Below, one piece after another: positions 43,178-58,971 of a DNA stretch of 64,000 nucleotides. Location of the stretch: the NCBI RefSeq assembly GCF_002025255.2, contig NZ_CP054587.1, forward strand, positions 806,001 to 870,000, read 5' to 3'. The notes under the pieces are model-generated. The model did not search any database. It saw only the letters and a program-made list of their open reading frames with translations, and was not told the origin of the DNA. Positions within the stretch are counted from its first letter, which is position 1. Every line of letters begins with the position of its first letter. The translations under genes were made by a program, and so were the position numbers. Source of the DNA: Halolamina sp. CBA1230. GTDB lineage: Archaea > Halobacteriota > Halobacteria > Halobacteriales > Haloferacaceae.

Positions 43178-44298
43178 GAAACAACAAGGGTCAATACTCC
43201 AGTCCTGCTGACAAGCAGATTTCGGAGGAAATGGAGGAATTGCTGGGAATATACCTTGACAGTCTCCAGCAACAAAAATCAGACACGTCTGACAGTACGA
43301 TCGAGACTCGAAGCCGAGAAGTCCGTTACTGGCTTGCGTTCTGTGAACATAACGATATTGAGCCACTTCGTGCGACCACTGCTGACGTACGCGCCTATCT
43401 CCAGACGATCACGGACAAATCTGACACGACGATCGGCAATTACTACGCTTCTGTTCAGTCCTTTTACTCGATCACTCAAAACGACCAGGCACACAAACGG
43501 TTGGAACTTGCTAACGGCCATCCCTGCGACAAGAATGCAGGGATTAGCCTCAAAGATGACTACGGCGTCCATCGGTCTACTCCCGAATATCGAAAACAAC
43601 ACAGCCTCTCTGCCAAGGAGATCGACGGCATTCGAGAGAATTCTGGGGACGTTCTGGCGTTGATACCCGAAAAAGTCGAGATGCTATTCGACAACGTGCC
43701 CGGAAAGACTCCTGAAACGCGATTAAGGAACGAGGTTGCATGCCGGCTGAATTGGTATACTGGATGCCGGAGCGTCGAATTGTCCAGGCTGAAAATACAG
43801 AATATTGACTGGGAAAACTGCGCCATCAACGTCAAATCTGCCAAACTCAAAGCATCCGAGAACCCAGATCTCGTTCGCCGGAACGTATTCTTCCCCGAAG
43901 AATTCAGGTTCCAACTTAAACGATGGTGTGAACGTGTCCGACACGGATTCTCATCTCAAGTGGAACCAGAACACGGAGCCATCCTCTGTACGACTCACAG
44001 CAAGACGATGGACGGAGCACAAATTAATGATATCGTCAAACAGGCTGCCGACAACGCAGGTGTTCAGCGTCCTTTGCGACCAGCGAACCCAGAACCTAAC
44101 GAGGAAATTAAGGAGTGGTTCGTAACGACTCATAGAATTCGACGAAGCGCGATTAGCTACTGGGTCAATGATTGCGAGACTATTGACCTCCATCAGGCAC
44201 GGCGACTCGCAGGCCACGCACGGTTGGATCAAACGATGGAATACGTGGAAGACGACGAAGAACAATTGGCCGAAGATTATCAACAAGCCATGGGGTAA
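43174..44298 (+). CDS. Tyrosine recombinase / integrase
   Basis: A 374-residue XerC-like integrase. The N-terminal SAM-like core-binding domain covers about residues 15-110 (TIETRSREVRYWLAFCEHND). The catalytic domain holds Arg199 (YTGCRSVELSRL), a Lys near 223-225, His320-x2-Arg323 (HRIR), His348 (LAGHARLDQ) and the nucleophile Tyr357. All catalytic residues are present, so it should be active. Its place at the left edge of the accessory region suggests it inserted the element. Confidence 0.92.
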   Translation: MRNNKGQYSSPADKQISEEMEELLGIYLDSLQQQKSDTSDSTIETRSREVRYWLAFCEHNDIEPLRATTADVRAYLQTITDKSDTTIGNYYASVQSFYSITQNDQAHKRLELANGHPCDKNAGISLKDDYGVHRSTPEYRKQHSLSAKEIDGIRENSGDVLALIPEKVEMLFDNVPGKTPETRLRNEVACRLNWYTGCRSVELSRLKIQNIDWENCAINVKSAKLKASENPDLVRRNVFFPEEFRFQLKRWCERVRHGFSSQVEPEHGAILCTTHSKTMDGAQINDIVKQAADNAGVQRPLRPANPEPNEEIKEWFVTTHRIRRSAISYWVNDCETIDLHQARRLAGHARLDQTMEYVEDDEEQLAEDYQQAMG

Positions 44299-45015: not shown

Positions 45016-45612
45016 TTAGCCTGGCAACTTCCCTACGAGGCCCCTTACCGACTCTATATTGAGAAACCGCGGCGTTTGCTCGCAATACTGCTCGTATTCG
45101 TCGCCGTAGTGTTCACGGAGCCATGGCTCTTCAGCGAATGGGAAGAGGATGTAGATGAGTGCGGTCAGTGACCCATGTACCGCCAGTTTCTGCGAATTTA
45201 CTGCAAGCATCGCTCCAACGATGAAGGTGACAAACCCGACGCTCTGTGGATTCCGGGTATATTCGTAGATTCCATCGGTTCGAAGATCACCCTCCCGTCC
45301 ACTACTTTCCATCCACCCGAGTTCGAAGAGTGCTGAGAGCGAAAACGCCATGCCGAACACAGAGAGGAGTGTGCCGACAATTCGAAGGGATACACTCGTA
45401 ACTCGGAACGAGTCCCAGTCACGGTAGGCCAGCACGGGAAATCCGGTGAAGACTACCGAGAGTGCCGACCAGTTGAACCACCAACGCCATTTACTGTCAC
45501 CGATCGGCCAGAGACGTCGATCGGGGACAAACACACTGACAACGTATCCAACAATCAGGACAGCATCGGCGATCATCGTGGTGAGAAAGGCACGATCTGA
45601 TCGGGACGCCAT
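45016..45612 (-). CDS. Isoprenylcysteine carboxyl methyltransferase-like membrane protein
   Basis: A 198-residue protein with four to five membrane helices. The C-terminal region fits the ICMT/PEMT-type methyltransferase fold: DGIYEYTRNPQSVGFVTFIV (R-x-P after a helix turn) and EEPWLREHYGDEYEQYCEQT. In this superfamily the R-N-P and E-E residues bind SAM. The true substrate in archaea is unknown; lipid or protein methylation are options. The start is the ATG at 45612. Divergent from the next membrane gene, 193 bases apart. Confidence 0.82.
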   Translation of the reverse strand: MASRSDRAFLTTMIADAVLIVGYVVSVFVPDRRLWPIGDSKWRWWFNWSALSVVFTGFPVLAYRDWDSFRVTSVSLRIVGTLLSVFGMAFSLSALFELGWMESSGREGDLRTDGIYEYTRNPQSVGFVTFIVGAMLAVNSQKLAVHGSLTALIYILFPFAEEPWLREHYGDEYEQYCEQTPRFLNIESVRGLVGKLPG

Positions 45613-45805: not shown

Positions 45806-46978
45806 ATGATGGACGATTCCGGACGGAGCGCAACATTAGGTATTCTGTCGTCACTGATGTCCTTTGCTACCGTCTGGCTCCTACTAGGTGTTCTCCCCGG
45901 TACTGTCGCTGCACATGGAACAACTACGGGAGGTCTGTCCCACTGGCACGGTATCGCTCTCTTGGTACTGGGAGGCGTCATAACCGGAGTAGGAATCCTA
46001 GCGAAGCGATACGACAAGGGAACACTGAGGATGATTCTCTCTACTGTCTTCGTCGGAATCGTCGTTGCCGCTATCGGCGCAGTGCTGTTTGACGTCCACT
46101 CCCCAGACCCTGTCTATAGTGCCAGTAGGATGCCGTTCCCGCGCTCATTCTATCCATTTATTGGGGCCGCTGTTGGGTTATCTGCCATCGTCGTGAGCTT
46201 CTTCCTCGGATGGCTACGGTGGCCGACCCGCCCGCGGTACACCTTCCTGGGCATGCTGATGGGCGGCTGGATACTCTACCCGTACATCGTTCCCGGATTC
46301 GCCAGCAAGAACCCGCTCGGGTACGCGCTCGTGCTGGGAACTCCGGTCGCCGTCGGGTACGTCCTTTGGACCGATGCAAGCGAAGTTCTTCGAGTCATAA
46401 TGAACGACCCTCTCGCTCGCCGGTTCGGAACCGGAATCGGCATCGTCACCGGCCTGTTTTTCCTCTCGATCACGGGGTATCTCTCCTTCTTCCCTGAAGA
46501 GGGCGTCCCGCAACAGACAGTCATGACGGTGATTCCGGCACAGTATCAGCTCGTCGTCTGGCCGACGTTCGAACTGCTGATCCCAGAAGTGCCCTTCTTC
46601 CTCGCTCTTTCGCCAGGCGTCGTCGTTATCGTTGGGACACTCTCCGTGCTGGTCGGGATTCAAGCCAGCCTCATCGCGCGGAAATGGCGGGTTGACGAGC
46701 AGGTCGGTGCAACAATGAGTACGGCGAACACATCCGCTATTGTCGGCACATGTACGTGTGGCTGCTGTGGTCCGCTGGTCGCAAAGGTCGCCGTCCTCGT
46801 CGCCGGCCCGACGATCACGGCCCCATTGTACTGGGTGTTCGTCGATACATCGTCGCCACTGAGTGTGATCTTCATCGTCGGAAGCATGTTGCTGTTCACG
46901 GGCAGCATCCTCTACTCGATTGGGTCAGTATATCATCCAGACCGCTCTACTGATATCGCGTCAGTACAGGCTGACTGA
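45806..46978 (+). CDS. Polytopic membrane protein with Cys-x-Cys-x-Cys-Cys motif
   Basis: A 390-residue protein with about ten membrane segments, the first possibly a signal anchor ending near TVAAHGTTTGG. The striking feature is Cys316-Thr-Cys318-Gly-Cys320-Cys321-Gly-Pro near the end, in or just before a membrane helix (LVAKVAVLVAGP). Cysteine clusters of this type bind soft metals. The gene lies directly upstream of a CDF exporter and a metal P-ATPase, which supports a metal-handling role (inference). Family not recognised. An ATG three bases downstream is an alternative start. Confidence 0.75.
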   Translation: MMDDSGRSATLGILSSLMSFATVWLLLGVLPGTVAAHGTTTGGLSHWHGIALLVLGGVITGVGILAKRYDKGTLRMILSTVFVGIVVAAIGAVLFDVHSPDPVYSASRMPFPRSFYPFIGAAVGLSAIVVSFFLGWLRWPTRPRYTFLGMLMGGWILYPYIVPGFASKNPLGYALVLGTPVAVGYVLWTDASEVLRVIMNDPLARRFGTGIGIVTGLFFLSITGYLSFFPEEGVPQQTVMTVIPAQYQLVVWPTFELLIPEVPFFLALSPGVVVIVGTLSVLVGIQASLIARKWRVDEQVGATMSTANTSAIVGTCTCGCCGPLVAKVAVLVAGPTITAPLYWVFVDTSSPLSVIFIVGSMLLFTGSILYSIGSVYHPDRSTDIASVQAD

Positions 46979-47027: not shown

Positions 47028-47921
47028 ATGGGAGATGGTCATAGTCACAACGGGGAGGGTCGAAGCACCCGAAAGCTCGCCATCGTCGCTGGAATCAATC
47101 TTGTCGGGTTCGTTGCAGAGCTCGTTGGGGGGCTTCTCTTCGGCTCGGTCGCACTCATCGGGGACGCCCTTCACATGCTGTTCGACGCTGTGGCATACGT
47201 GCTCGCGCTCGGGGCAGTTTACGTCGGTCGGCGAACGGAGCCCGGGAGCCGCTGGTCGTACGGGCTGAACCGACTGGAACCGCTCGCTGCATTCTTGAAC
47301 GGCGTTCTGTTGGTCCCGATGGTCGGCTACCTCGTCTGGGAATCGTACCAACGATACCTGCAGCCGGTCGAAATCGAACCACTGCAGACAGCCGCATTGG
47401 CGGCTGGTGGATTAGTTCTCAACATTGCCTCCGTGTACGTGATTCAGGGTGGGTCGATGAGTCTCAACGAGCGTGGCGCGTACTATCACCTCCTCGGAGA
47501 TACCGGTGCATCCATCGCTGTGATCGTCTCAATGCTGGTCGTCCAGTTCTCCGGGTCGAAGCTTGCGGATCCGATTACTGCCGTCATCATCGCGGTGATA
47601 ATCGTCTGGTCCGCTGTCGAGTTGATTCGTGAAAGTGGCGCAATCTTCCTGCAGCGGAGTCCAGTTTCCGTGGAGGACGTCCGACAACGACTCCTCGAAG
47701 TCGGTGGCGTAGCGAGCGTCGAAGACGCGCACATCTGGGAGCTATCCAGCTCTCTCCGTATTGCGACCGTCCACGTTCGTGATCATGCGACGACGGTCGC
47801 AGAACGGGACTCTCTCAACGAACGGATTTCCACGATTCTCGCCTCAGAGTACGATGCGGATCACGTCACGGTTGATCTCGTGTCCGCCGGAAACGACACC
47901 GAGAGGCGGCGGGAACACTGA
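47028..47921 (+). CDS. Cation diffusion facilitator (Zn2+/Cd2+ efflux, CzcD/ZnT type)
   Basis: A 297-residue CDF protein with six membrane helices and a cytoplasmic ferredoxin-like C-terminal domain. The transport site has H-x3-D in TM2 (DALHMLFD) and H-x3-D in TM5 (YYHLLGDTGAS), the pattern of Zn2+-selective members. Short His motifs (GDGHSHNGE) occur at the N-terminus. It exports metal in exchange for protons. It is transcribed in the same direction as the flanking metal genes, with gaps of 49 and 106 bases. Confidence 0.93.
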   Translation: MGDGHSHNGEGRSTRKLAIVAGINLVGFVAELVGGLLFGSVALIGDALHMLFDAVAYVLALGAVYVGRRTEPGSRWSYGLNRLEPLAAFLNGVLLVPMVGYLVWESYQRYLQPVEIEPLQTAALAAGGLVLNIASVYVIQGGSMSLNERGAYYHLLGDTGASIAVIVSMLVVQFSGSKLADPITAVIIAVIIVWSAVELIRESGAIFLQRSPVSVEDVRQRLLEVGGVASVEDAHIWELSSSLRIATVHVRDHATTVAERDSLNERISTILASEYDADHVTVDLVSAGNDTERRREH

Positions 47922-48027
47922 CCACTCGAAAGTTAATATCTCAACTCCAGAAATTTGTTAATCACTACTATCTAATGGGGTGTTATTGGCAGAAGAATTG
48001 TTAACCTCTCGCCGTCTACCCTGCAGC

Positions 48028-50628
48028 ATGACCGGTGGAGAGGATTCACATCACGATCACGACCACGATCATGGCGGACATGATCATGATCACGACCACG
48101 GACACGGTGGTTCTGAAAACGAAGTAGCCGGTGACCTCGCGGGGGAGGAGTCGGTCCAGCTTACGGTTCCGGAGATGGATTGCCCGTCCTGTGCCGGGAA
48201 AGTCGAAAAGAGCGTTCGAAAACTCGACGCCGTCGAGACGGTCCACCCACAGGTGACGACCGGGACGCTCACGGTGGGGTACGAATCGGACGGGACGACG
48301 CCGGAGGATGTCGCGGAGCGTGTCGAGAAAGCCGGCTACGAGGTCGAGGCCGGTGTGGGTGAGGTAACCGAGACGTTCACCGCCCCGGAGATGGACTGCC
48401 CGTCCTGTGCCGGGAAGGTCGAGAACGCGGTCGAAGGCGTGGAGGGCGTTACCGCCTATCGAACCCAGCCGACGACCGGCAAAATCACCGTGACGTTCGA
48501 CCAGTCGCAGACATCTGCAGACGAGGTCACTCGCGCAATCGAGAACGCAGGGTACGAAATCACCGACTCGACTGCCGGCGGAGGTGACGGCGCTGTCGCC
48601 GAGACTGAGAGCGTCTGGCGTAGCACCCGGGCCATCAAGACGTGGGTCAGTGGGGGCTTCACCCTCCTGGGGTTGCTATTCGAGTTCGTCCTCGGTGGAC
48701 TGAACGTCGAACTCCTCGCTACCGCCGGTGTGGCGCTCTCGACTGCCGACGTGTTGTTCCTCGCTGCCGTCGTGACTGGCGGACAGGAGATCGTTCGGGG
48801 GGGCTACTACTCGCTGCGAAACCGGAACCTCGACATCGACCTGCTGATGAGTCTCGCCATCCTCGGGGCCGTGACGGTCAGCCTCGTCTTCGGCGAAGCC
48901 CTCTACATGGAGGCGGCGACGCTCGCGTTCCTGTTCAGCGTCGCCGAACTGCTGGAACGCTACTCGATGGACAAGGCCCGGAACTCTCTGCAGGAACTGA
49001 TGGACCTCTCGCCCGACGAAGCGACGGTCCGGCGCGACGGCGAAGACGTGACGCTCCCCGTTGACGAGGTCGAAGTCGGCGACGTAGTCGTGGTGAAGCC
49101 TGGTGAGAAGATTCCGCTTGATGGCGAGGTGCTGGAGGGCGAGAGCGCGGTGAATCAGGCCCCCATCACCGGAGAGAGTGTCCCGGTGGACAAGACGACG
49201 GGCGACGAGGTATACGCTGGCACGGTCAACGAACAGGGCTACTTGGAGGTGCAGGTCACCTCCGAGGCGGGCGACAACACGCTCTCGCGCATCATCGAGA
49301 TGGTCGAGGACGCGCAGTCGAACAAAACTGAGCGCGAGCAGTTCGTCGAGCGGTTCGCGGGCTACTACACGCCGCTAGTCGTCGTCTTCGCGGTGCTGGT
49401 GACGCTCGCGTCGCCGGCGGTGCTCGGCGCGACACAGACCCAGGCGATCGTCTATGGGTTGACGCTACTGGTGCTCGCCTGTCCGTGCGCGTTCGTGATC
49501 TCGACGCCCGTCTCGGTCGTCTCGGGGATCACCAGCGGCGCGAAGAACGGCGTCCTGATCAAGGGCGGCAACCACCTCGAAGCGATGGGCGAGGTCGATG
49601 CGGTCGCCCTCGACAAGACGGGGACGCTCACGTTCGGCGAACTCACCGTCACCGACGTGATCCCGCTCGGGGAGAACTCCGAGGACGATGTCCTCCGGTG
49701 TGCGAAGGGACTCGAAACCCGGTCGGAGCACCCCATCGGCGACGCTATCGTCGAGCACGCAGAGACACGGGGTGTCAGCGACCGCAGCGTCTTGGAGTTC
49801 GAAAGTATCACCGGAAAGGGTGTCCGAGCCGACCTCGACGGCACCGCCCACTACGCGGGGAAACCCGGGCTGTTCCAGGAACTCGGCTTCGACCTCAACC
49901 ACGTCCACGCTGCGACGGACGGCGGGATGGTCACACAGAAGAGCCGGCAGATGTGTGAGCGGAACGACTGTGTAGACCTGCTGGAGTCCGTCGTCCCCGA
50001 CCTCCAGTCCGAGGGGAAGACGGTCGTTCTCGTCGGCACCGAGGACGAGATCGAGGGTGCCATCGCCGTCGCCGATGACGTCCGCGAGGAGGCGAAACAG
50101 GCGGTTTCCCGCCTCCACGATCTCGGTGTCGAACACGTCGTGATGCTGACGGGGGACAACGAACGAACCGCCCGTGCCATCGCCGAAAAGGTGGGGGTCG
50201 ATGAATTCCGTGCCGAACTCCTCCCCGAGGACAAGGTTGACGCGGTGCGAGAACTCAACGAGCAGTACGGTGGCGTGGCGATGGTCGGCGACGGGATCAA
50301 CGACGCCCCCGCACTGGCGACGGCGACTGTCGGCGTCGCCATGGGGGCGGCAGGGACTGACACCGCCATCGAGACCGCCGACATCGCCTTGATGGGCGAC
50401 GACCTCTCCCGACTGCCGTACCTCTACGAGCTCTCCCACGACGCGAACAGCGTAATCCGGCAGAACATCTGGACCAGCCTCGCAGTGAAAGCTGGCCTCG
50501 CGCTCGCCGTGCCGTTCGGGTTCGTCCCGATCTGGGCCGCAGTTTTGATCGGCGACGCCGGGATGACTCTCGGCGTCACTGGGAACGCGATGCGACTCTC
50601 CCGTATCACGCCTGAGATGGGAGAATAG
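48028..50628 (+). CDS. Heavy-metal translocating P1B-type ATPase (ZntA/CadA-like)
   Basis: An 866-residue pump. The first 45 residues are rich in His/Asp and may buffer metal. Two HMA domains follow with MDCPSCAGKV at about residues 49 and 121, then eight membrane helices. The CPC transport motif is at residues 485-487, the phosphorylation site DKTGT begins at 529, TGES and GDGIND (754-759) are intact. A CPC motif with MDCPSC sensors and a CDF neighbour points to Zn2+/Cd2+/Pb2+ export rather than Cu+. A cysteine/aspartate loop (RQMCERNDCVD) sits in the nucleotide domain. The ATG before TGGEDSHH is chosen. Confidence 0.94.
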   Translation: MTGGEDSHHDHDHDHGGHDHDHDHGHGGSENEVAGDLAGEESVQLTVPEMDCPSCAGKVEKSVRKLDAVETVHPQVTTGTLTVGYESDGTTPEDVAERVEKAGYEVEAGVGEVTETFTAPEMDCPSCAGKVENAVEGVEGVTAYRTQPTTGKITVTFDQSQTSADEVTRAIENAGYEITDSTAGGGDGAVAETESVWRSTRAIKTWVSGGFTLLGLLFEFVLGGLNVELLATAGVALSTADVLFLAAVVTGGQEIVRGGYYSLRNRNLDIDLLMSLAILGAVTVSLVFGEALYMEAATLAFLFSVAELLERYSMDKARNSLQELMDLSPDEATVRRDGEDVTLPVDEVEVGDVVVVKPGEKIPLDGEVLEGESAVNQAPITGESVPVDKTTGDEVYAGTVNEQGYLEVQVTSEAGDNTLSRIIEMVEDAQSNKTEREQFVERFAGYYTPLVVVFAVLVTLASPAVLGATQTQAIVYGLTLLVLACPCAFVISTPVSVVSGITSGAKNGVLIKGGNHLEAMGEVDAVALDKTGTLTFGELTVTDVIPLGENSEDDVLRCAKGLETRSEHPIGDAIVEHAETRGVSDRSVLEFESITGKGVRADLDGTAHYAGKPGLFQELGFDLNHVHAATDGGMVTQKSRQMCERNDCVDLLESVVPDLQSEGKTVVLVGTEDEIEGAIAVADDVREEAKQAVSRLHDLGVEHVVMLTGDNERTARAIAEKVGVDEFRAELLPEDKVDAVRELNEQYGGVAMVGDGINDAPALATATVGVAMGAAGTDTAIETADIALMGDDLSRLPYLYELSHDANSVIRQNIWTSLAVKAGLALAVPFGFVPIWAAVLIGDAGMTLGVTGNAMRLSRITPEMGE

Positions 50629-50800: not shown

Positions 50801-51082
50801 CTAGCTCACGAACACCATATAGAGCATCACGACTGCAGCCCAGAGGATCCCGATCAGGATGACCATCTTGATGTGAAAGATGAATATCTCTTCTTCCTCC
50901 TCCTCGCTCGCTTCCTCGTACTGAACGCGTTCTGTCTCTCCGAGCCGTTCTTCGTGTTTCTCTCCGAGATGCAGGTCGTGTGTTCGGTCACTGGTAAACG
51001 GCCGGTCGCAGTACGGGCACTGCTGTACGCTCTCGTGGCTATCCGATAGACGAACATCTGGGTGAATCGGTTGTTCAGTCAT
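50801..51082 (-). CDS. C2H2 zinc-finger protein with C-terminal membrane anchor
   Basis: A 93-residue protein. A single C2H2-like finger is seen at Cys22-x2-Cys25 and His38-x4-His43 (QCPYCDRPFT, HDLHLGEKH). An acidic linker of glutamates follows, and residues 73-92 are one hydrophobic helix (MVILIGILWAAVVMLYMVFV). Last gene of a four-gene minus-strand operon, overlapping the end of the 476-residue membrane protein by four bases. It could be a small membrane-associated partner of that protein. Function unknown. Confidence 0.78.
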   Translation of the reverse strand: MTEQPIHPDVRLSDSHESVQQCPYCDRPFTSDRTHDLHLGEKHEERLGETERVQYEEASEEEEEEIFIFHIKMVILIGILWAAVVMLYMVFVS

Positions 51083-52509
51083 ACGTATGCTGGGTTCACG
51101 TACGGTTGGGCGATGATCCACAGGCCCGTCATCGTATAGAGTACCATGACGACGATGAACGGGTACTGACTCCGAATTGGCTTCAGGCTTCCTGGGAACA
51201 GCGAGAGGGCGAGTGAATGCGCGATCCAGACTCCTAACACGTGACCCGCGACGATCAGGAGGAGTTTGATGTTGATGAACCATGCGGGGATGGTCAGCGT
51301 GTACAACGTTTCGGGCGCTGCGAATGGGTTCGAAACGGCGAGAGCCAGTGCCGGCGAAAGGCCGAGGAAGTACGTGAGATAGTGGGCGACGTGATAGGCC
51401 GCAGCAATCGGAATCAATGCTGGGACGAACCACCCCTCGATGAACTCTGTAGTCACGGGCGTTTCAGTGCGCTTTCGGGAGCGAGCGGCGGCGAACCGGT
51501 ACGCTCCATAGAACACAGCGAACCCTGTCCCAAGCCCGAAGAGATACACGAGCGGATACGGAATCCCGCCCTCGACGATCGCCCTCGTCAGACGGTTCCA
51601 ACTCCCCGTGGTCACGACGCCGTCGAACGATGTGCCCCAGAGAAGCGCAATCGTGAATGCAACCGTATCTTTCGATGCGGCGGTATCGCTTTCGGCGAGA
51701 GACGCTCCGGGGAACTGGACCGTGTACCCGTCGTCGGTCTTCTGAATCGGGGCGATACGCCCGTACACGCGAAACACCCCGGAAATCGGGTCAACTGTCT
51801 CGAACCACGTTTCTTCTCCGAATACAACAGCTCCAGAGAGGGTCACTACCGAGTATGCGACGATCACCAACGAAAGCAGACGTGGTACTGCATCGACGGG
51901 TGTGACGACCTCAACGTACACCAGGAGCAAGAGGAACACAACGCTTGGCCAGCGGCCATATCGTTCCGGATACGGCCGATCGAGAGAGGGGAGTCGGCTT
52001 GCAATCGACTTCCACGGGTTGAGTATCGGCCACGAGTTCCCGATGAAGTACGTACTCATGGAGTAGCCTGCCCACCACCCTGCCCAGACGATCAGTATTG
52101 CAGCGTTGTACTGGGGCCGAACTGTCCCAACCAGCCCTCGGTACACGACGAAGACGACGGTCGCTATTCCGAAGAGTTCTCCAGCCGTTTTGAGTACCGA
52201 TTCCAGAGGTGGGAATTCGGGAAGCGAAAGGGAGCGAGTGTTGACATCGCGGACCGACTCGTGGTCAGTGAGAAAACTGGTGAAGACAAACGACCCGGCA
52301 ACGACCGCTCCACCGGTGAGAACCGTCAACCACGTCGGAATCGACGCTGACCGGGTCGCTGTACCCCCGACAGACCCTCCCCGTGCGCTGACCAGCCCGG
52401 TTACGATCGGGAGCGCAATTACGACCGCAAGTACGGTTCGACGCTGTTTCATTACTCTCAGCGCCTGTCGCAACTTCTCTGTCGAGACTATCTCACGACT
52501 CTTGTTCAT
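51079..52509 (-). CDS. Large polytopic membrane protein of unknown function
   Basis: A 476-residue protein with about twelve membrane helices. Notable motifs are NPWKSIASRLPSLDRPYPER followed by YGRWPSVVF, and histidines in a later helix (YHVAHYLTYF) and near GHVLGVWIAH. Intramembrane histidines of this kind often ligate heme or metal. Related proteins are, as I recall, sometimes auto-named fenitrothion hydrolase; I cannot confirm that and would not rely on it. It overlaps both neighbours by four bases (downstream zinc-finger gene, upstream three-helix protein), so all are co-translated. Confidence 0.75.
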   Translation of the reverse strand: MNKSREIVSTEKLRQALRVMKQRRTVLAVVIALPIVTGLVSARGGSVGGTATRSASIPTWLTVLTGGAVVAGSFVFTSFLTDHESVRDVNTRSLSLPEFPPLESVLKTAGELFGIATVVFVVYRGLVGTVRPQYNAAILIVWAGWWAGYSMSTYFIGNSWPILNPWKSIASRLPSLDRPYPERYGRWPSVVFLLLLVYVEVVTPVDAVPRLLSLVIVAYSVVTLSGAVVFGEETWFETVDPISGVFRVYGRIAPIQKTDDGYTVQFPGASLAESDTAASKDTVAFTIALLWGTSFDGVVTTGSWNRLTRAIVEGGIPYPLVYLFGLGTGFAVFYGAYRFAAARSRKRTETPVTTEFIEGWFVPALIPIAAAYHVAHYLTYFLGLSPALALAVSNPFAAPETLYTLTIPAWFINIKLLLIVAGHVLGVWIAHSLALSLFPGSLKPIRSQYPFIVVMVLYTMTGLWIIAQPYVNPAYV

Positions 52510-52784
52510 TGTTGAAGGTATAGCGAATACAGAATCACTCCCAGTCCGGTAGCGACAAACACGCTGTTTGCCAGAACGCCTTCTGCCAGCGGCACTGAGA
52601 AGAACTGGTTCGCAACGCCGGAGAGAAGCGCCCCGACAGTAATAATTGCGAAGCCGATACAGAGCAGCTGGAGCGACCGTTCTGGTGTTTTCCTGTATGC
52701 TTTGTACGCGACGTAGGAAATCGCTCCGCCGAGAACGAAGATGATCGATTTGACGACGGCGATTCCGAGTTCAACCATCGTCAT
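52506..52784 (-). CDS. Small three-helix membrane protein (DUF7521-like)
   Basis: A 92-residue hydrophobic protein with three membrane helices: LGIAVVKSIIFVLGGAISYV, LQLLCIGFAIITVGALLSGV and LANSVFVATGLGVILYSLYL, with a basic loop YKAYRKTPERS after the first. This matches haloarchaeal proteins that occur next to winged-helix regulators. The ATG overlaps the regulator's stop by four bases. A second ATG two codons downstream is possible. Function unknown. Confidence 0.78.
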   Translation of the reverse strand: MTMVELGIAVVKSIIFVLGGAISYVAYKAYRKTPERSLQLLCIGFAIITVGALLSGVANQFFSVPLAEGVLANSVFVATGLGVILYSLYLQQ

Positions 52785-53155
52785 ATCTCATCACCCATCT
52801 TCGACCAGAGGTCGCTCAGTCGATCCTCCGGGGGCCGTTCTCTCTCATCTATCTTAATACTGAATTCGCCATTGTCATCCATGGTTACTGCGACTCCTTC
52901 GAAACTCCGAACGTATTCTGTCATCTGCCCTGTTTCTGAATCGACTGTGACCTGTTTTCGAACGAGAGAGGCTGTCGTGAGTTGGTTCAGCTTTCGGTAC
53001 AAGGTCGTCTCCGGAAGATCACAAAGATCCGCGATCTCATTGGGCGTTCGTGGCTCGGTCGTTACCCGGAGGATTTCTCGACAGTCCGGATCGTCGAGTA
53101 CAGCGAAAACTGTGGACAACGGGCGTTCTGCATCTCCCGAGTCATCTTCCTCCAT
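52781..53155 (-). CDS. Winged-helix transcriptional regulator
   Basis: A 124-residue ArsR/PadR-like winged-helix protein. STVFAVLDDPDCREILRVTT forms helix 1, PNEIADLCDLPETTLYRKLN the helix-turn-helix, and LVRKQVTVDSETGQMTEYVR the wing. No metal-binding cysteine pair is obvious in the recognition region. First gene of the four-gene operon, so it probably controls its own promoter and the membrane genes behind it. Signal unknown; a TATA-like box is 20-27 bases upstream. Confidence 0.85.
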   Translation of the reverse strand: MEEDDSGDAERPLSTVFAVLDDPDCREILRVTTEPRTPNEIADLCDLPETTLYRKLNQLTTASLVRKQVTVDSETGQMTEYVRSFEGVAVTMDDNGEFSIKIDERERPPEDRLSDLWSKMGDEI

Positions 53156-53217: not shown

Positions 53218-54180
53218 TCATTCCTGCTCTCCACTTCCAGTATCAGCATAAATCTCCAGTAGCTCCTGATACCGGTTTCGTATCGTTACTTCACTGACGT
53301 TCGATACCTCTCCGACTGCTTCCTGTGTCAGTGACTGGTTTGTGAGGTACGCCGCCGCGTACAGGGCTGCACCTGCCAGCCCAGCCGGACTTTTACCGCT
53401 ATGTGCCCCTCGCCCCTTCATAGTCGAAAGGATGTCGATAGCTAGCCGTTCAGACTCGCTTCCGAGATCTAAGTCCGACGCGAATTGGGGGATGTATTCA
53501 CACGGGTCCTCCGGTTCGATACCGAGAGATAGTTCACGGGAGATGTACCGGTAGGTCCGTTGGAATCGCATCTTTTTGACTCGACTGACAGTCGCAAAGC
53601 GCTCCAGCGTACGCAACGACCCGTGTTGTCTGGCGGCTGCATATAGTGATGCTGTCGCCATCCCCTCAATTGACCGCCCACGCAGGAGATCCTCGTCTAC
53701 GGCCCGCCTATAGATAACACTCGCTGTCTCTTGAACCGATCTGCTGAGACCAAGCGCGGATGCCATCCGGCGGATTTCCCCAAGGGCTTGTCGAATATTT
53801 CGATCGCGGGAATCCTTCGTCCTGAACCGTTCGTTCCACGTCCGAAGGCGACCCATCTGCCGCCGCTTCTCGGTCGAGAGTGTCTGGCCATAGCCATCCT
53901 GTTTTCTCCCGATCTTCGTACTAAGCCCGTCATCGTGCAGGAGATTTGTAACGGGAGCTCCAACGTGCCGGCCATCGTCGTCTTCGTCGGAGAATGACCG
54001 CCAGTCGGGACCTCGATCAATGGCGTCTTCGTCGAGAACTAGGCCACAGCTATTGCAAGCAAACTCCCCGTACTCTTGGGTCTGAACGATCGACCCACTA
54101 CACTCCGGACACGATTGCACCGAGCGGGTATTGTTTTCCTTTGTGCTACTGTCTTCGCCAGAACGTTTCACACGATCCAT
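53218..54180 (-). CDS. tfb: Transcription initiation factor IIB (TFB)
   Basis: A 320-residue TFB. The N-terminal zinc ribbon uses Cys24, Cys27, Cys42 and Cys45. The B-reader/linker region has DRGPDWRSFSDEDDDGRHVG, and two cyclin-like repeats follow (for example SIEGMATASLYAAARQHG, LAGAALYAAAYLTNQSLTQE) with a C-terminal recognition helix EVTIRNRYQELLEIY. Haloarchaea encode several TFBs with different target sets. This copy lies in the accessory region beside the membrane operon and may serve it or act more widely. Confidence 0.94.
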   Translation of the reverse strand: MDRVKRSGEDSSTKENNTRSVQSCPECSGSIVQTQEYGEFACNSCGLVLDEDAIDRGPDWRSFSDEDDDGRHVGAPVTNLLHDDGLSTKIGRKQDGYGQTLSTEKRRQMGRLRTWNERFRTKDSRDRNIRQALGEIRRMASALGLSRSVQETASVIYRRAVDEDLLRGRSIEGMATASLYAAARQHGSLRTLERFATVSRVKKMRFQRTYRYISRELSLGIEPEDPCEYIPQFASDLDLGSESERLAIDILSTMKGRGAHSGKSPAGLAGAALYAAAYLTNQSLTQEAVGEVSNVSEVTIRNRYQELLEIYADTGSGEQE

Positions 54181-56174: not shown

Positions 56175-56435
56175 ATGGCGACGGCAGACGAGCAGATCCG
56201 CGTGAGCGACCGGGTGAAACGCATCCTCGACCGGCACCGCGCCGAAGGCGAGAGCTACAACGACGTGCTTGAGCGCGTCCTCGATCAGGAAACGGGCGGC
56301 GACTTCGACGACGGGTTCGGACGCTGGTCTGACGACGAGGCCGACCGCGTCCGCGAGCAGCGCGAAGCAGCCAAGGAGGAGCGAAAGGCGCGGATGCGTC
56401 GGCGGAGCAGTGAAGGCGAGGACGCCGACGCATGA
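56175..56435 (+). CDS. VapB-like antitoxin
   Basis: An 86-residue protein. The N-terminal ADEQIRVSDRVKRILDRHRA and EGESYNDVLERVL is an archaeal RHH-type antitoxin domain, and the basic/acidic tail (REAAKEERKARMRRRSSEGE) would wrap the toxin. Its stop overlaps the start of the PIN gene (ATGA), the normal antitoxin-toxin arrangement. It should both neutralise the toxin and repress the operon through the adjacent inverted repeat. Confidence 0.85.
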   Translation: MATADEQIRVSDRVKRILDRHRAEGESYNDVLERVLDQETGGDFDDGFGRWSDDEADRVREQREAAKEERKARMRRRSSEGEDADA

Positions 56436-56833
56436 AGGTTCTCGACGCGAGTTTTCTCATCGACTACTACGACGGCCACCCGGCGACCAAGAAGTTCTAC
56501 GACGCCAACGGCGGCGAAGAGGAGCGGTGGGTGATCCCCGTGCCGGCCTGCGCCGAACTGCTGGTCGGTGAGGGGAACCTCCCTGATGGCGATGTCGAGT
56601 CTGCTCGAACCGCGCTCGCGTGGGCAGAGACGCACACTGTTGATGAGCACACCGCTGTGCTCGCTGGGAAGATCGCGGACGAAATCCCTGCGGAGGGGCC
56701 ATACCTCGACGGCCCCGACGCGATGATCGCGGCTGTCGGGCGCGAGGTCAACGCACCGGTGGTGTCCCGCGACGGCGACCTCACCCACGAGGCGACGAAG
56801 GGCGTCATCGACGTCGAAGAGTACCTCGACTGA
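56432..56833 (+). CDS. VapC-like PIN-domain ribonuclease toxin
   Basis: A 133-residue PIN protein. The acidic Mg2+ site is Asp5 (VLDASFLIDY), Glu42 (ACAELLVG), Asp96 (LDGPDAMIA) and Asp114/Asp116 (VVSRDGDLTHEA). VapC toxins cleave tRNA or rRNA. All key residues are present, so it should be active. The pair probably stabilises the accessory element. The target is unknown. Confidence 0.9.
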   Translation: MKVLDASFLIDYYDGHPATKKFYDANGGEEERWVIPVPACAELLVGEGNLPDGDVESARTALAWAETHTVDEHTAVLAGKIADEIPAEGPYLDGPDAMIAAVGREVNAPVVSRDGDLTHEATKGVIDVEEYLD

Positions 56834-57685: not shown

Positions 57686-58141
57686 CTAGTCTTCCTCGTA
57701 TTCGTAACCCCAGTCACGGAGTTCATCGGCGACTTCTTCAGGATGCTCTGCTGCGACGCGGACCAGTGCTTCACGCAAATCCGTGAGTAACACGTCCGTC
57801 CCAAGTTCACTCTCAACCGCCCGCTTCACGTCATCTTCAATGGCTTCCGTTTCCTCTCGAAGGAAGTACTGGATCATCTTCCGATCGTCCTTGACACTAT
57901 TCCGGCCGTAGATGTAGGGTAACCCCTCACGGTCAGTGCGACTCGTTGATTCAATGGACTCTGAGTGGTCAGCTGTTGCACTATCCGCTTGCTCGTGGTC
58001 TTGGGTCTCCGCGGTGTCTTGCCCATTCTCCTCAGGAGTATCCGTGGTCTCTGCCTCGTTGTCAGCGGATTCCTCCGCGTCGTCGTTGTTTGAATCCGTT
58101 TCAAAGGGGTCACTCCCGGATCCGGATTTCATGCCAGTCAT
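57686..58141 (-). CDS. Acidic partner protein of ParA
   Basis: A 151-residue protein. Residues 1-70 are a low-complexity Asp/Glu/Ser/Thr tail (NNDDAEESADNEAETTDTPE), and residues 75-145 form an alpha-helical domain: GRNSVKDDRKMIQYFLREET, then VKRAVESELGTDVLLTDLRE and AEHPEEVADELRDWGY. Its start overlaps the parA stop by four bases, so it is likely the ParB-like adaptor that binds the nearby repeat array. That role is inferred from position. Confidence 0.72.
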   Translation of the reverse strand: MTGMKSGSGSDPFETDSNNDDAEESADNEAETTDTPEENGQDTAETQDHEQADSATADHSESIESTSRTDREGLPYIYGRNSVKDDRKMIQYFLREETEAIEDDVKRAVESELGTDVLLTDLREALVRVAAEHPEEVADELRDWGYEYEED

Positions 58142-58971
58142 TGGTCTACCTCTTCGATATGAGTCGCAAGGGTACGTAGTTTGTCGAGCGTGTCCACTTC
58201 GTAGTCACGATGCCGATTCCGATAGTACCCGACGTAATGGAACGCCGTGCATTGTTCATCCCAGCACCCCTCGAACAACGAGGCTCGATTACGGAGGATT
58301 ACGGGGGCATCATATCCGAGTTCTTGAATCTGTGTGAGGTACTGATCTTGATTGGTCGTCTGCCCAACTCCGTTTGGGACGACAGCAAGTACGCCGACGT
58401 CGAATCCGAGCTCTGTGCTGAGGTTCGTGACGATGTCTTCGATACCTGAAATCGACTGAAGCCCCTTACCGGTGGGTTCGACTGGGAGGACAAGCGATCG
58501 GGTCGCGGACACAGCGTTGTAGAGTTGGACTCCTGCTGTCGCTGGAGGGTCCACGATAAGTACGTCGTAGTCCTGGTTGACATCCGCGTTCATCAAGACT
58601 TGGCGGAGTCTGTCGTGCGGGTTGAATGAGTCGCCCAAGTCCTCGGCCATTTCTTGAGCTTTATTCAGGAGTTGTGGAAGGCTCTCTAGCATGTTGTGGG
58701 AGGGGATGAGATCGAAGCCAAACGGTGTGTCGTGGATGAGGTCGTCGAACGAGCCACCCGGGCGGTCGATGAGATGTCGGGCGATGTTGTCGGCGTCATC
58801 GTCGTCACGGGAGGTGTCAACTCCGAGGAGGTACGTTAACGATCCCTGTTGGGGGTCCAAGTCAATAACCAAGACGTCCTGGTCTCGTTGACTGTGGGCA
58901 TCAGCGAGGTTTGCGGTGAGAGTGGTCTTCCCAACGCCGCCTGACTCGGAATAGACGGTGTAAGTGAGCAT
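58138..58971 (-). CDS. ParA/Soj-type partition ATPase
   Basis: A 277-residue ATPase of the ParA/MinD family. P-loop SGGVGKTTL is at residues 10-18, switch I VLVIDLDPQQGSLTYLLG and switch II VLIVDPPATAGVQLYNAV follow, with LVLPVEPTGKGLQSISGI later. The signature lysine of the deviant Walker A (K-G-G-x-G-K-T) is Ser10 here, so dimer catalysis may differ from bacterial ParA. It should segregate a plasmid or integrated element together with the acidic partner. A repeat array lies just upstream. Confidence 0.9.
   Translation of the reverse strand: MLTYTVYSESGGVGKTTLTANLADAHSQRDQDVLVIDLDPQQGSLTYLLGVDTSRDDDDADNIARHLIDRPGGSFDDLIHDTPFGFDLIPSHNMLESLPQLLNKAQEMAEDLGDSFNPHDRLRQVLMNADVNQDYDVLIVDPPATAGVQLYNAVSATRSLVLPVEPTGKGLQSISGIEDIVTNLSTELGFDVGVLAVVPNGVGQTTNQDQYLTQIQELGYDAPVILRNRASLFEGCWDEQCTAFHYVGYYRNRHRDYEVDTLDKLRTLATHIEEVDQ

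Follow-up and report, generated by a model that had tools for sequence, protein, structure and literature searches.

Do the four closely packed genes at positions 50801-53155 of this stretch of Halolamina sp. CBA1230 DNA encode a single membrane complex, and what might their products do? The unit consists of four open reading frames (ORFs) that together fill this interval on the minus strand of the window (the whole 64,000-nucleotide stretch that was analysed): a winged-helix regulator of the helix-turn-helix (HTH) class (gene 1), a DUF7521 membrane protein (gene 2), a large membrane protein (gene 3) and a zinc-finger protein with a membrane anchor (gene 4; see the table below). A preliminary description, made from the letters alone, had noted a four-base overlap at every junction and had taken it as a sign of one complex. 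The ORFs proved to be real, and all three junctions read ATGA (52781-52784, 52506-52509 and 51079-51082). Such overlaps are ordinary in themselves, as an exact 4-bp overlap was found in 134 of 968 same-strand neighbour pairs (gene calls of the window and of the named loci introduced below). Among 169 fetched gene-3 loci, a set in which some places are represented twice, bacterial plasmid loci are included and many stretches reach only 1.5 kb beyond gene 3, the one locus where a DUF7521 gene and an HTH gene adjoined gene 3 was that of the window itself (L001; 1/169). A conserved four-gene operon is thereby rejected. The preliminary description had itself named rare co-occurrence of the four genes in other genomes as grounds for refutation, and on this count the idea of one complex of four is unsupported. 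The unit in the window is two joined modules, genes 1-2 and genes 3-4.

Genes 3-4 are a conserved and widespread membrane-protein pair without a described function. A scan of named genomes, several Haloferax species among them, yielded 246 confirmed gene-3 matches, of which the best 80 were kept; two of these (L137 and L139) dropped out when a called gene matching the gene-3 profile was required, and the remaining 78 named loci represent the top of the match list for the query alignment rather than a random sample. In 74 of the 78 the gene right after gene 3 is a gene-4 homologue, and a start codon permitting the 4-bp overlap of the two genes exists in 49 of those 74. A search with gene 4 gave matches in 84 of 170 genomes of the taxonomic family to which the window belongs; all 11 gene-4 matches listed up to handle G060 adjoin, by our reading, a gene-3 match, in either order. 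Plasmids pHMA155 and pHME505 retain the two genes in reversed order, with the zinc-finger gene upstream of gene 3; the pHMA155 finger scores under the DUF7410 cut-off, and that of pHME505 has no DUF7410 match. Gene 4 of the window matched DUF7410 (PF24166) above the curated cut-off (E = 6e-13; 48.8 bits versus 27.5), while gene 3 belongs to no family in Pfam or NCBIfam. Among the matches listed in searches of the literature on haloarchaeal oxidases, copper insertion, CtaG and hmoCAB, no title dealt with the gene 3/gene 4 pair.

The genomic surroundings of gene 3 point to haem-copper oxidases. Within the class, gene-3 matches were obtained in 277 of 391 genomes and 65 of 86 genera. Of the 78 named loci, 57 had a COX subunit gene within the DNA fetched (at most 10 kb to either side), and recurring neighbours were genes for a COX1-COX3 fusion, COX2, COX4_pro, a separate COX3, DUF7546 and a UbiA prenyltransferase, the family to which CtaB belongs. 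Because the COX1-COX3 fusion is present, the COX1 profile also catches separate COX3 genes. A sample of 60 haloarchaeal genomes, as drawn by the class search, is less biased than the named loci. It contained 55 gene-3 loci in 39 genomes, and 32 of these loci (in 29 of the 39 genomes) lay no more than 10 kb from a COX3-domain gene, where gene density predicts approximately 0.9% per locus by chance (binomial tail 2e-50, a value that ignores relatedness). COX1 was detected in 58 of the 60 genomes, and the two genomes without it were also without gene 3.

Several further neighbours of gene 3 are recorded here. A family of approximately 145 amino acids without a Pfam match (L048, 5719-6165; cluster 5) recurs just upstream of oxidase-linked gene-3 copies, often with DUF7546 between the two. 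The genome of the window carries three gene-3 copies, the third of which (contig C2; L045, 7467-13670) lies near genes for a P1B ATPase and a DsbD_2 protein. Genes of the DUF7350/Iron_transport type occur near plasmid-borne copies (L145, L148 and L064), and L145 also holds a DUF7405 gene with a DyP peroxidase match under the cut-off.

Homologues of gene 3 were also found in bacteria. A tblastn search against plasmids gave matches in 61 records, including Rhizobium, Sulfitobacter, Mycobacterium and Variovorax, and a second bacterial search was seeded with the Mycobacterium homologue. Copper-enzyme or copper-chaperone genes were neighbours of the homologue in four of 12 annotated regions; a thirteenth region, from Rhizobium sp. 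007, carries no annotation and stands outside this count. The next genes after the homologue of Mycobacterium dioxanotrophicus are, in this order, a zf-HC2 gene and those for subunits C, A and B of a methane/ammonia monooxygenase (CuMMO). The M. chubuense NBB4 homologue, six genes on from CuMMO subunit B, immediately precedes a soluble monooxygenase cluster. The homologue of Sulfitobacter adjoins a PCuAC copper chaperone gene. In M. gallinarum its neighbour is a multicopper oxidase gene, and a P1B ATPase is encoded close by. The zf-HC2 gene of M. dioxanotrophicus (L146, 8001-10178), compared by annotation only, echoes gene 4 of haloarchaea.

Next we considered the protein encoded by gene 3. 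Its AlphaFold2 model (mean predicted local distance difference test score, pLDDT, 92.2; predicted template modelling score, pTM, 0.87) shows, by our reading, 10-11 membrane helices rather than the twelve given in the preliminary description, whose intramembrane histidines were borne out as H373, H376, H423 and H431. In an alignment of 60 haloarchaeal sequences, D82, E200, D240, H376, H423 and H431 were present in all rows, and H373 and D296 in 59. The 11 bacterial homologues that were aligned all possess H376, H423 and D296, and 10 of them H431. Position 43 is a histidine in 56 of the 58 haloarchaeal rows that have a residue there (the window included), the exceptions being an arginine in the window and an alanine in one Haladaptatus paralogue, and it is a histidine in nine of the 11 bacterial homologues. 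In 53 of the 56 rows with His43 this residue is preceded by Ala at -1 and Ala or Val at -3, a signal-peptidase-like motif, and the mature protein would begin with His43 after the predicted cleavage.

Searches for relatives of this fold were negative or weak. Foldseek found no match in the PDB at E≤0.001 for the whole model or for its histidine-bearing C-terminal half (pLDDT 90), and no match for the whole model in a viral library. A second-look fold comparison reached best Z-scores of 5.5 for the whole model and 5.6 for the C-terminal half; its matches (TTYH2, class B G-protein-coupled receptors, a designed channel and ABC transporters) were scattered and were set aside. A match to Adeno_PX (E = 0.025, spanning 18 residues, under the family cut-off) was taken as chance, as were two matches to mycothione reductase in a profile search of solved chains (E = 0.33 and 0.68).

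We then asked which copper-delivery proteins are found in haloarchaea. Of the four families searched (CtaG, Cox11, CopD and SCO), only CtaG and Cox11 went undetected: Caa3_CtaG (PF09678) matched in none of 61 haloarchaeal genomes, with Bacillus subtilis and Corynebacterium glutamicum positive as controls, and Cox11 in none of the 61, with Caulobacter positive. CopD was matched in 52 of the 61 genomes (25 above the cut-off) and SCO in 48 (46 above the cut-off), whereas neither was matched in the genome of the window. A SCO match was missing from 10 of 40 genomes with gene 3 and from 1 of 19 COX1-bearing genomes without it (Fisher p = 0.085); with phylogeny uncontrolled, this complementarity is not used as support.

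Our tentative reading is that genes 3-4 form a membrane module for handling a metal, copper being the most likely, on behalf of membrane cuproenzymes; in haloarchaea the enzyme served would often be the haem-copper oxidase. This may well be correct, though we stop short of calling it probable. The pairing, the gene context, the residue conservation and the loss of H43 are observations, from which we infer the identity of the metal, the direction of its movement, the partner enzyme, the cleavage and the topology. In the mechanism we propose, signal peptidase would remove the first helix of gene 3, so that a histidine becomes the first mature residue on the outer face; this N-terminal histidine would take up the metal and hand it to an intramembrane site of H376, H423 and H431, with H373 and D296. 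Its onward destination could be either the cytoplasm or the oxidase, there the CuB site in subunit I or the CuA site. Gene 4, tail-anchored and with its finger presumably in the cytoplasm, might act as a regulatory or docking subunit. A more far-reaching proposal is possible but doubtful: genes 3-4 would be an undescribed copper-insertion machine with a fold unrecognised in the PDB, common to haloarchaeal haem-copper oxidases and actinobacterial copper monooxygenases, which would work through an N-terminal histidine bared by signal peptidase and an intramembrane histidine site, would substitute for CtaG/Cox11 where these are lacking, and would be rewired in the window copy. Given that neither of the described CuB assembly factors was detected despite COX1 in nearly all sampled genomes (58/60), the gene 3/gene 4 pair is a candidate for the missing step, and its relatives near bacterial copper monooxygenases join two questions, namely by which route copper reaches membrane-embedded sites and which protein carries it.

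A number of observations weigh against the copper-handling module. At the level of the protein, H373 is replaced in all six aligned actinobacterial homologues and in that of Sagittula, and E200 is lost in three of the bacterial homologues. The annotated starts of the actinobacterial homologues mostly leave a short tail with little room for a signal peptide, and the idea of a mature N-terminal histidine is therefore not uniform across the family. Neither the sequence searches nor the fold searches linked gene 3 to a solved copper protein. As to the pairing, no gene 4 lies directly downstream of gene 3 in four of the 78 named loci (L075, L083, L102 and L143), and in the genome of the window a single gene-4 match stands against three copies of gene 3. 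As to the context, 23 of the 55 sampled gene-3 loci are not near COX3, some of them on short contigs; 19 of the 58 COX1-bearing genomes gave no gene-3 match, and gene 3 is thus not needed for every oxidase; and some plasmid copies near Fe2+ transport (PF10634) genes point to iron. In eight of the 12 annotated bacterial regions (Variovorax, Pseudonocardia, two Rhodococcus, Sagittula, Neorhizobium, M. rufum and Fuscovulum) no clear copper enzyme stands beside the homologue, that of Pseudonocardia having a galactose-oxidase-domain gene approximately 3 kb away (by annotation only). CopD and SCO occur in most of the sampled genomes, so other candidate copper-delivery proteins exist in haloarchaea. 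Finally, the P1B ATPase of the window obtains better scores with Zn/Cd-type profiles than with those of the Cu type while passing the subfamily cut-offs of both, and the metal of the window copy may therefore not be copper.

Genes 1-2 are a separate recurring two-gene module. Gene 1 matched HTH_20 (PF12840; E = 3e-11, 43.5 bits) and gene 2 matched DUF7521 (PF24365; E = 2e-31, 108.5 bits), both above the curated cut-off of 27 bits, so that with DUF7410 for gene 4 the winged helix, the three-helix protein and the zinc finger seen at the outset all found a Pfam family. DUF7521 has eleven matches in the genome of the window, ten of them above the cut-off. Nine further stretches were inspected, with HTH-type ORFs assigned by eye and without Pfam: such an ORF is located directly upstream of DUF7521 in seven (L150-L154, L156 and L158), with a 4-bp overlap in four (L150-L153), whereas L157 has two DUF7521-like ORFs behind one HTH-type ORF and in L155 no HTH-type ORF was called beside DUF7521. 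None of the nine adjoins gene 3, whose two other copies are elsewhere. No paper on DUF7521 or DUF7410 was found in the literature collection searched.

Two further arrangements of this module were seen. A TFB gene lies upstream of HTH/DUF7521, on the same strand, both in the window (53218-54180) and in L153 (5499-6467), in the latter with one small ORF in between; this could be a TFB-switch cassette. On Haloarcula marismortui plasmid pHMA155 (L145, 1-1952), genes for an HTH protein, DUF7521 and an arylsulfotransferase overlap serially by 4 bp near a P1B ATPase and a CDF gene (DUF7521 assigned by Pfam, the others by the annotation of the record).

The window copy of gene 3 is best read as a diverged paralogue; the stretch that carries it has a lower GC content and an integrase, and metal-efflux genes lie beside it. 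FastTree gave this copy a long branch (0.8), in a group with five oxidase-linked copies that has 84% local support, a placement that is unsure for so long a row. It deviates at 18 columns that are conserved in at least 85% of its relatives, H43 among them, and retains H373, H376, H423, H431, D82, E200, D240 and D296. In six other genomes of the genus, the operon DNA gave only short partial matches, which together with the low GC content and the integrase is consistent with arrival on an island. As H43 is lost and a separate HTH/DUF7521 switch stands before it, the window copy probably does similar work in response to another signal, and its metal preference may have changed. Having lost one proposed ligand and standing behind another switch, it is a natural variant from which to learn which residues matter.

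These findings allow the competing explanations to be compared. Gene 3 could be a general permease for metal ions (iron, copper or zinc) that has the zinc-finger protein as a subunit and is placed beside oxidases merely since their assembly needs metal, and the window copy would then be a plain part of an efflux island. The P1B ATPase and CDF genes beside the window copy, the P1B ATPase, CDF and Iron_transport genes near plasmid copies and the P1B ATPase near the contig-C2 copy all fit this explanation. In the 78 named loci, however, the P1B and CDF profiles each match a single locus, compared with 57 for COX (few sequences went into the P1B and CDF profiles, and other ATPases and CDFs may have escaped them), and no known-permease fold stood out in the weak fold comparison (Z at most 5.6); we regard a general permease as unlikely. 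The intramembrane histidine pairs on neighbouring helices, together with the oxidase context, would also suit an accessory redox subunit of the oxidase that binds haem b through these pairs and hands electrons from menaquinol or halocyanin on to the oxidase. Such a role is improbable, given that one member of the pairs, H373, is lost in the six actinobacterial homologues, that an oxidase gene stands beside the homologue in none of the 12 annotated bacterial regions, and that the same fold comparison brought out no solved cytochrome fold either.

The remaining two alternatives concern the window itself. If its copy had been carried in by a mobile island and were now decaying, without a role today, this would agree with the long branch, the changed conserved columns including H43, and the integrase on a lower-GC stretch. 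However, none of the four reading frames and none of the junctions is disrupted, and the eight conserved residues named above are retained, which makes decay quite improbable. Least credible is a single stress-response membrane complex of genes 1-4. The ATGA at each of its three junctions and the orientation shared with the TFB gene speak for it, but of the 169 gene-3 loci the window's alone brings the four genes together, HTH/DUF7521 recurs elsewhere in the genome without genes 3-4, and 4-bp overlaps are common, so that we consider it highly improbable. The link to metal or redox functions suggested in the preliminary description thus holds in part: it is supported for genes 3-4, on evidence other than that first put forward, namely their frequent oxidase context in haloarchaea and the copper-enzyme genes beside some bacterial homologues. 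Genes 1-2 are a separate recurring module.

The features of the locus and of its surroundings are collected in the table. The family search confirmed the metal-efflux genes and the TFB gene that had been noticed beside the unit. The GC content of the window falls from 0.66-0.70 at 30-42 kb to 0.49-0.64 at 42-64 kb, and the lower-GC stretch (42500-64000) adjoins, as judged by eye, a ribosomal-protein/SecY region. Also by eye, a two-gene unit at 56175-56833 resembles VapBC, and a ParA-like ORF is present at 58138-58971. Near its N-terminus the cluster-61 protein (45806-46978) has a signal-like stretch whose last residues are AAHG, and its C-terminal motif reads CTCGCCGPL.

Table. Genes, conserved residues and neighbouring features of the four-gene unit, in window coordinates.
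Feature	Position	Strand	Basis
Gene 1, winged-helix regulator (HTH_20), 124 amino acids	52781..53155	-	ORF and Pfam
Gene 2, DUF7521 three-helix membrane protein, 92 amino acids	52506..52784	-	ORF and Pfam
Gene 3, membrane protein of 476 amino acids, 10-11 helices	51079..52509	-	ORF; no Pfam/NCBIfam family
Gene 4, DUF7410 C2H2-like zinc finger with C-terminal membrane helix, 93 amino acids	50801..51082	-	ORF and Pfam
Gene 3, codon 43, Arg in the window, after signal-peptidase-like V-S-A	52381..52383	-	alignment
Gene 3, codon 296, conserved Asp (D296)	51622..51624	-	alignments
Gene 3, codons 373-376 (H373 and H376), one long membrane helix	51382..51393	-	model and alignment
Gene 3, codons 423-431 (H423 and H431), next membrane helix	51217..51243	-	model and alignment
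Gene 4, zinc-finger residues C22, C25, H38 and H43	50954..51019	-	alignment
TFB transcription factor, just upstream of gene 1	53218..54180	-	family search
P1B heavy-metal ATPase, two HMA domains, convergent with the operon	47980..50628	+	family search
CDF cation efflux protein	47028..47921	+	family search
Protein of 390 amino acids without family (cluster 61)	45806..46978	+	relatives near gene 3 in L064, L083 and L102
PEMT-family gene	45016-45576		
Phage-type integrase	43231-44298		

How do the two modules compare with systems already known? Gene 2 is a clear member of DUF7521, and an HTH-type ORF with DUF7521 is a recurring combination in the same genome, whereas of all loci examined the window alone has this pair running on into genes 3-4. 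Gene 4 is above the family cut-off of DUF7410, but the Pfam model spans only 22 finger residues, and the acidic linker and the membrane helix of gene 4 fall outside it. For gene 3, the comparison is with copper proteins. LPMO and PmoB are copper proteins with a histidine brace. PMC13344008 describes a histidine brace in YcnJ, where the N-terminal histidine H24 of the CopC domain can bind copper and where H24 and H295 are both needed in support of haem-copper oxidases. The CopC-CopD/YcnJ importer combines a histidine site on the outer face with an intramembrane histidine, an arrangement that for gene 3 is only proposed. Gene 3 differs in that it has neither a CopC/CopD profile match nor a separate CopC domain, only the predicted N-terminal histidine, which is absent in the window copy. 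The profiles of CopD (PF05425) and CtaG_Cox11 (PF04442) matched neither gene 3 nor 60 members of its family, and the Caa3_CtaG profile gave no match to gene 3 at E≤1 and none to the 60 members at E≤0.1. According to a review of bacterial assembly factors (PMC9145763), CtaG and Cox11 differ greatly as proteins, and one or the other seems to be needed for the assembly of CuB. The CtaG of B. subtilis has seven predicted helices (PMC9145763), compared with 10-11 in the model of gene 3. Caa3_CtaG, a tentative CuB assembly factor (PMC9145763), is like gene 3 a multi-helix membrane protein with conserved His and Asp residues that is often clustered with oxidase genes.

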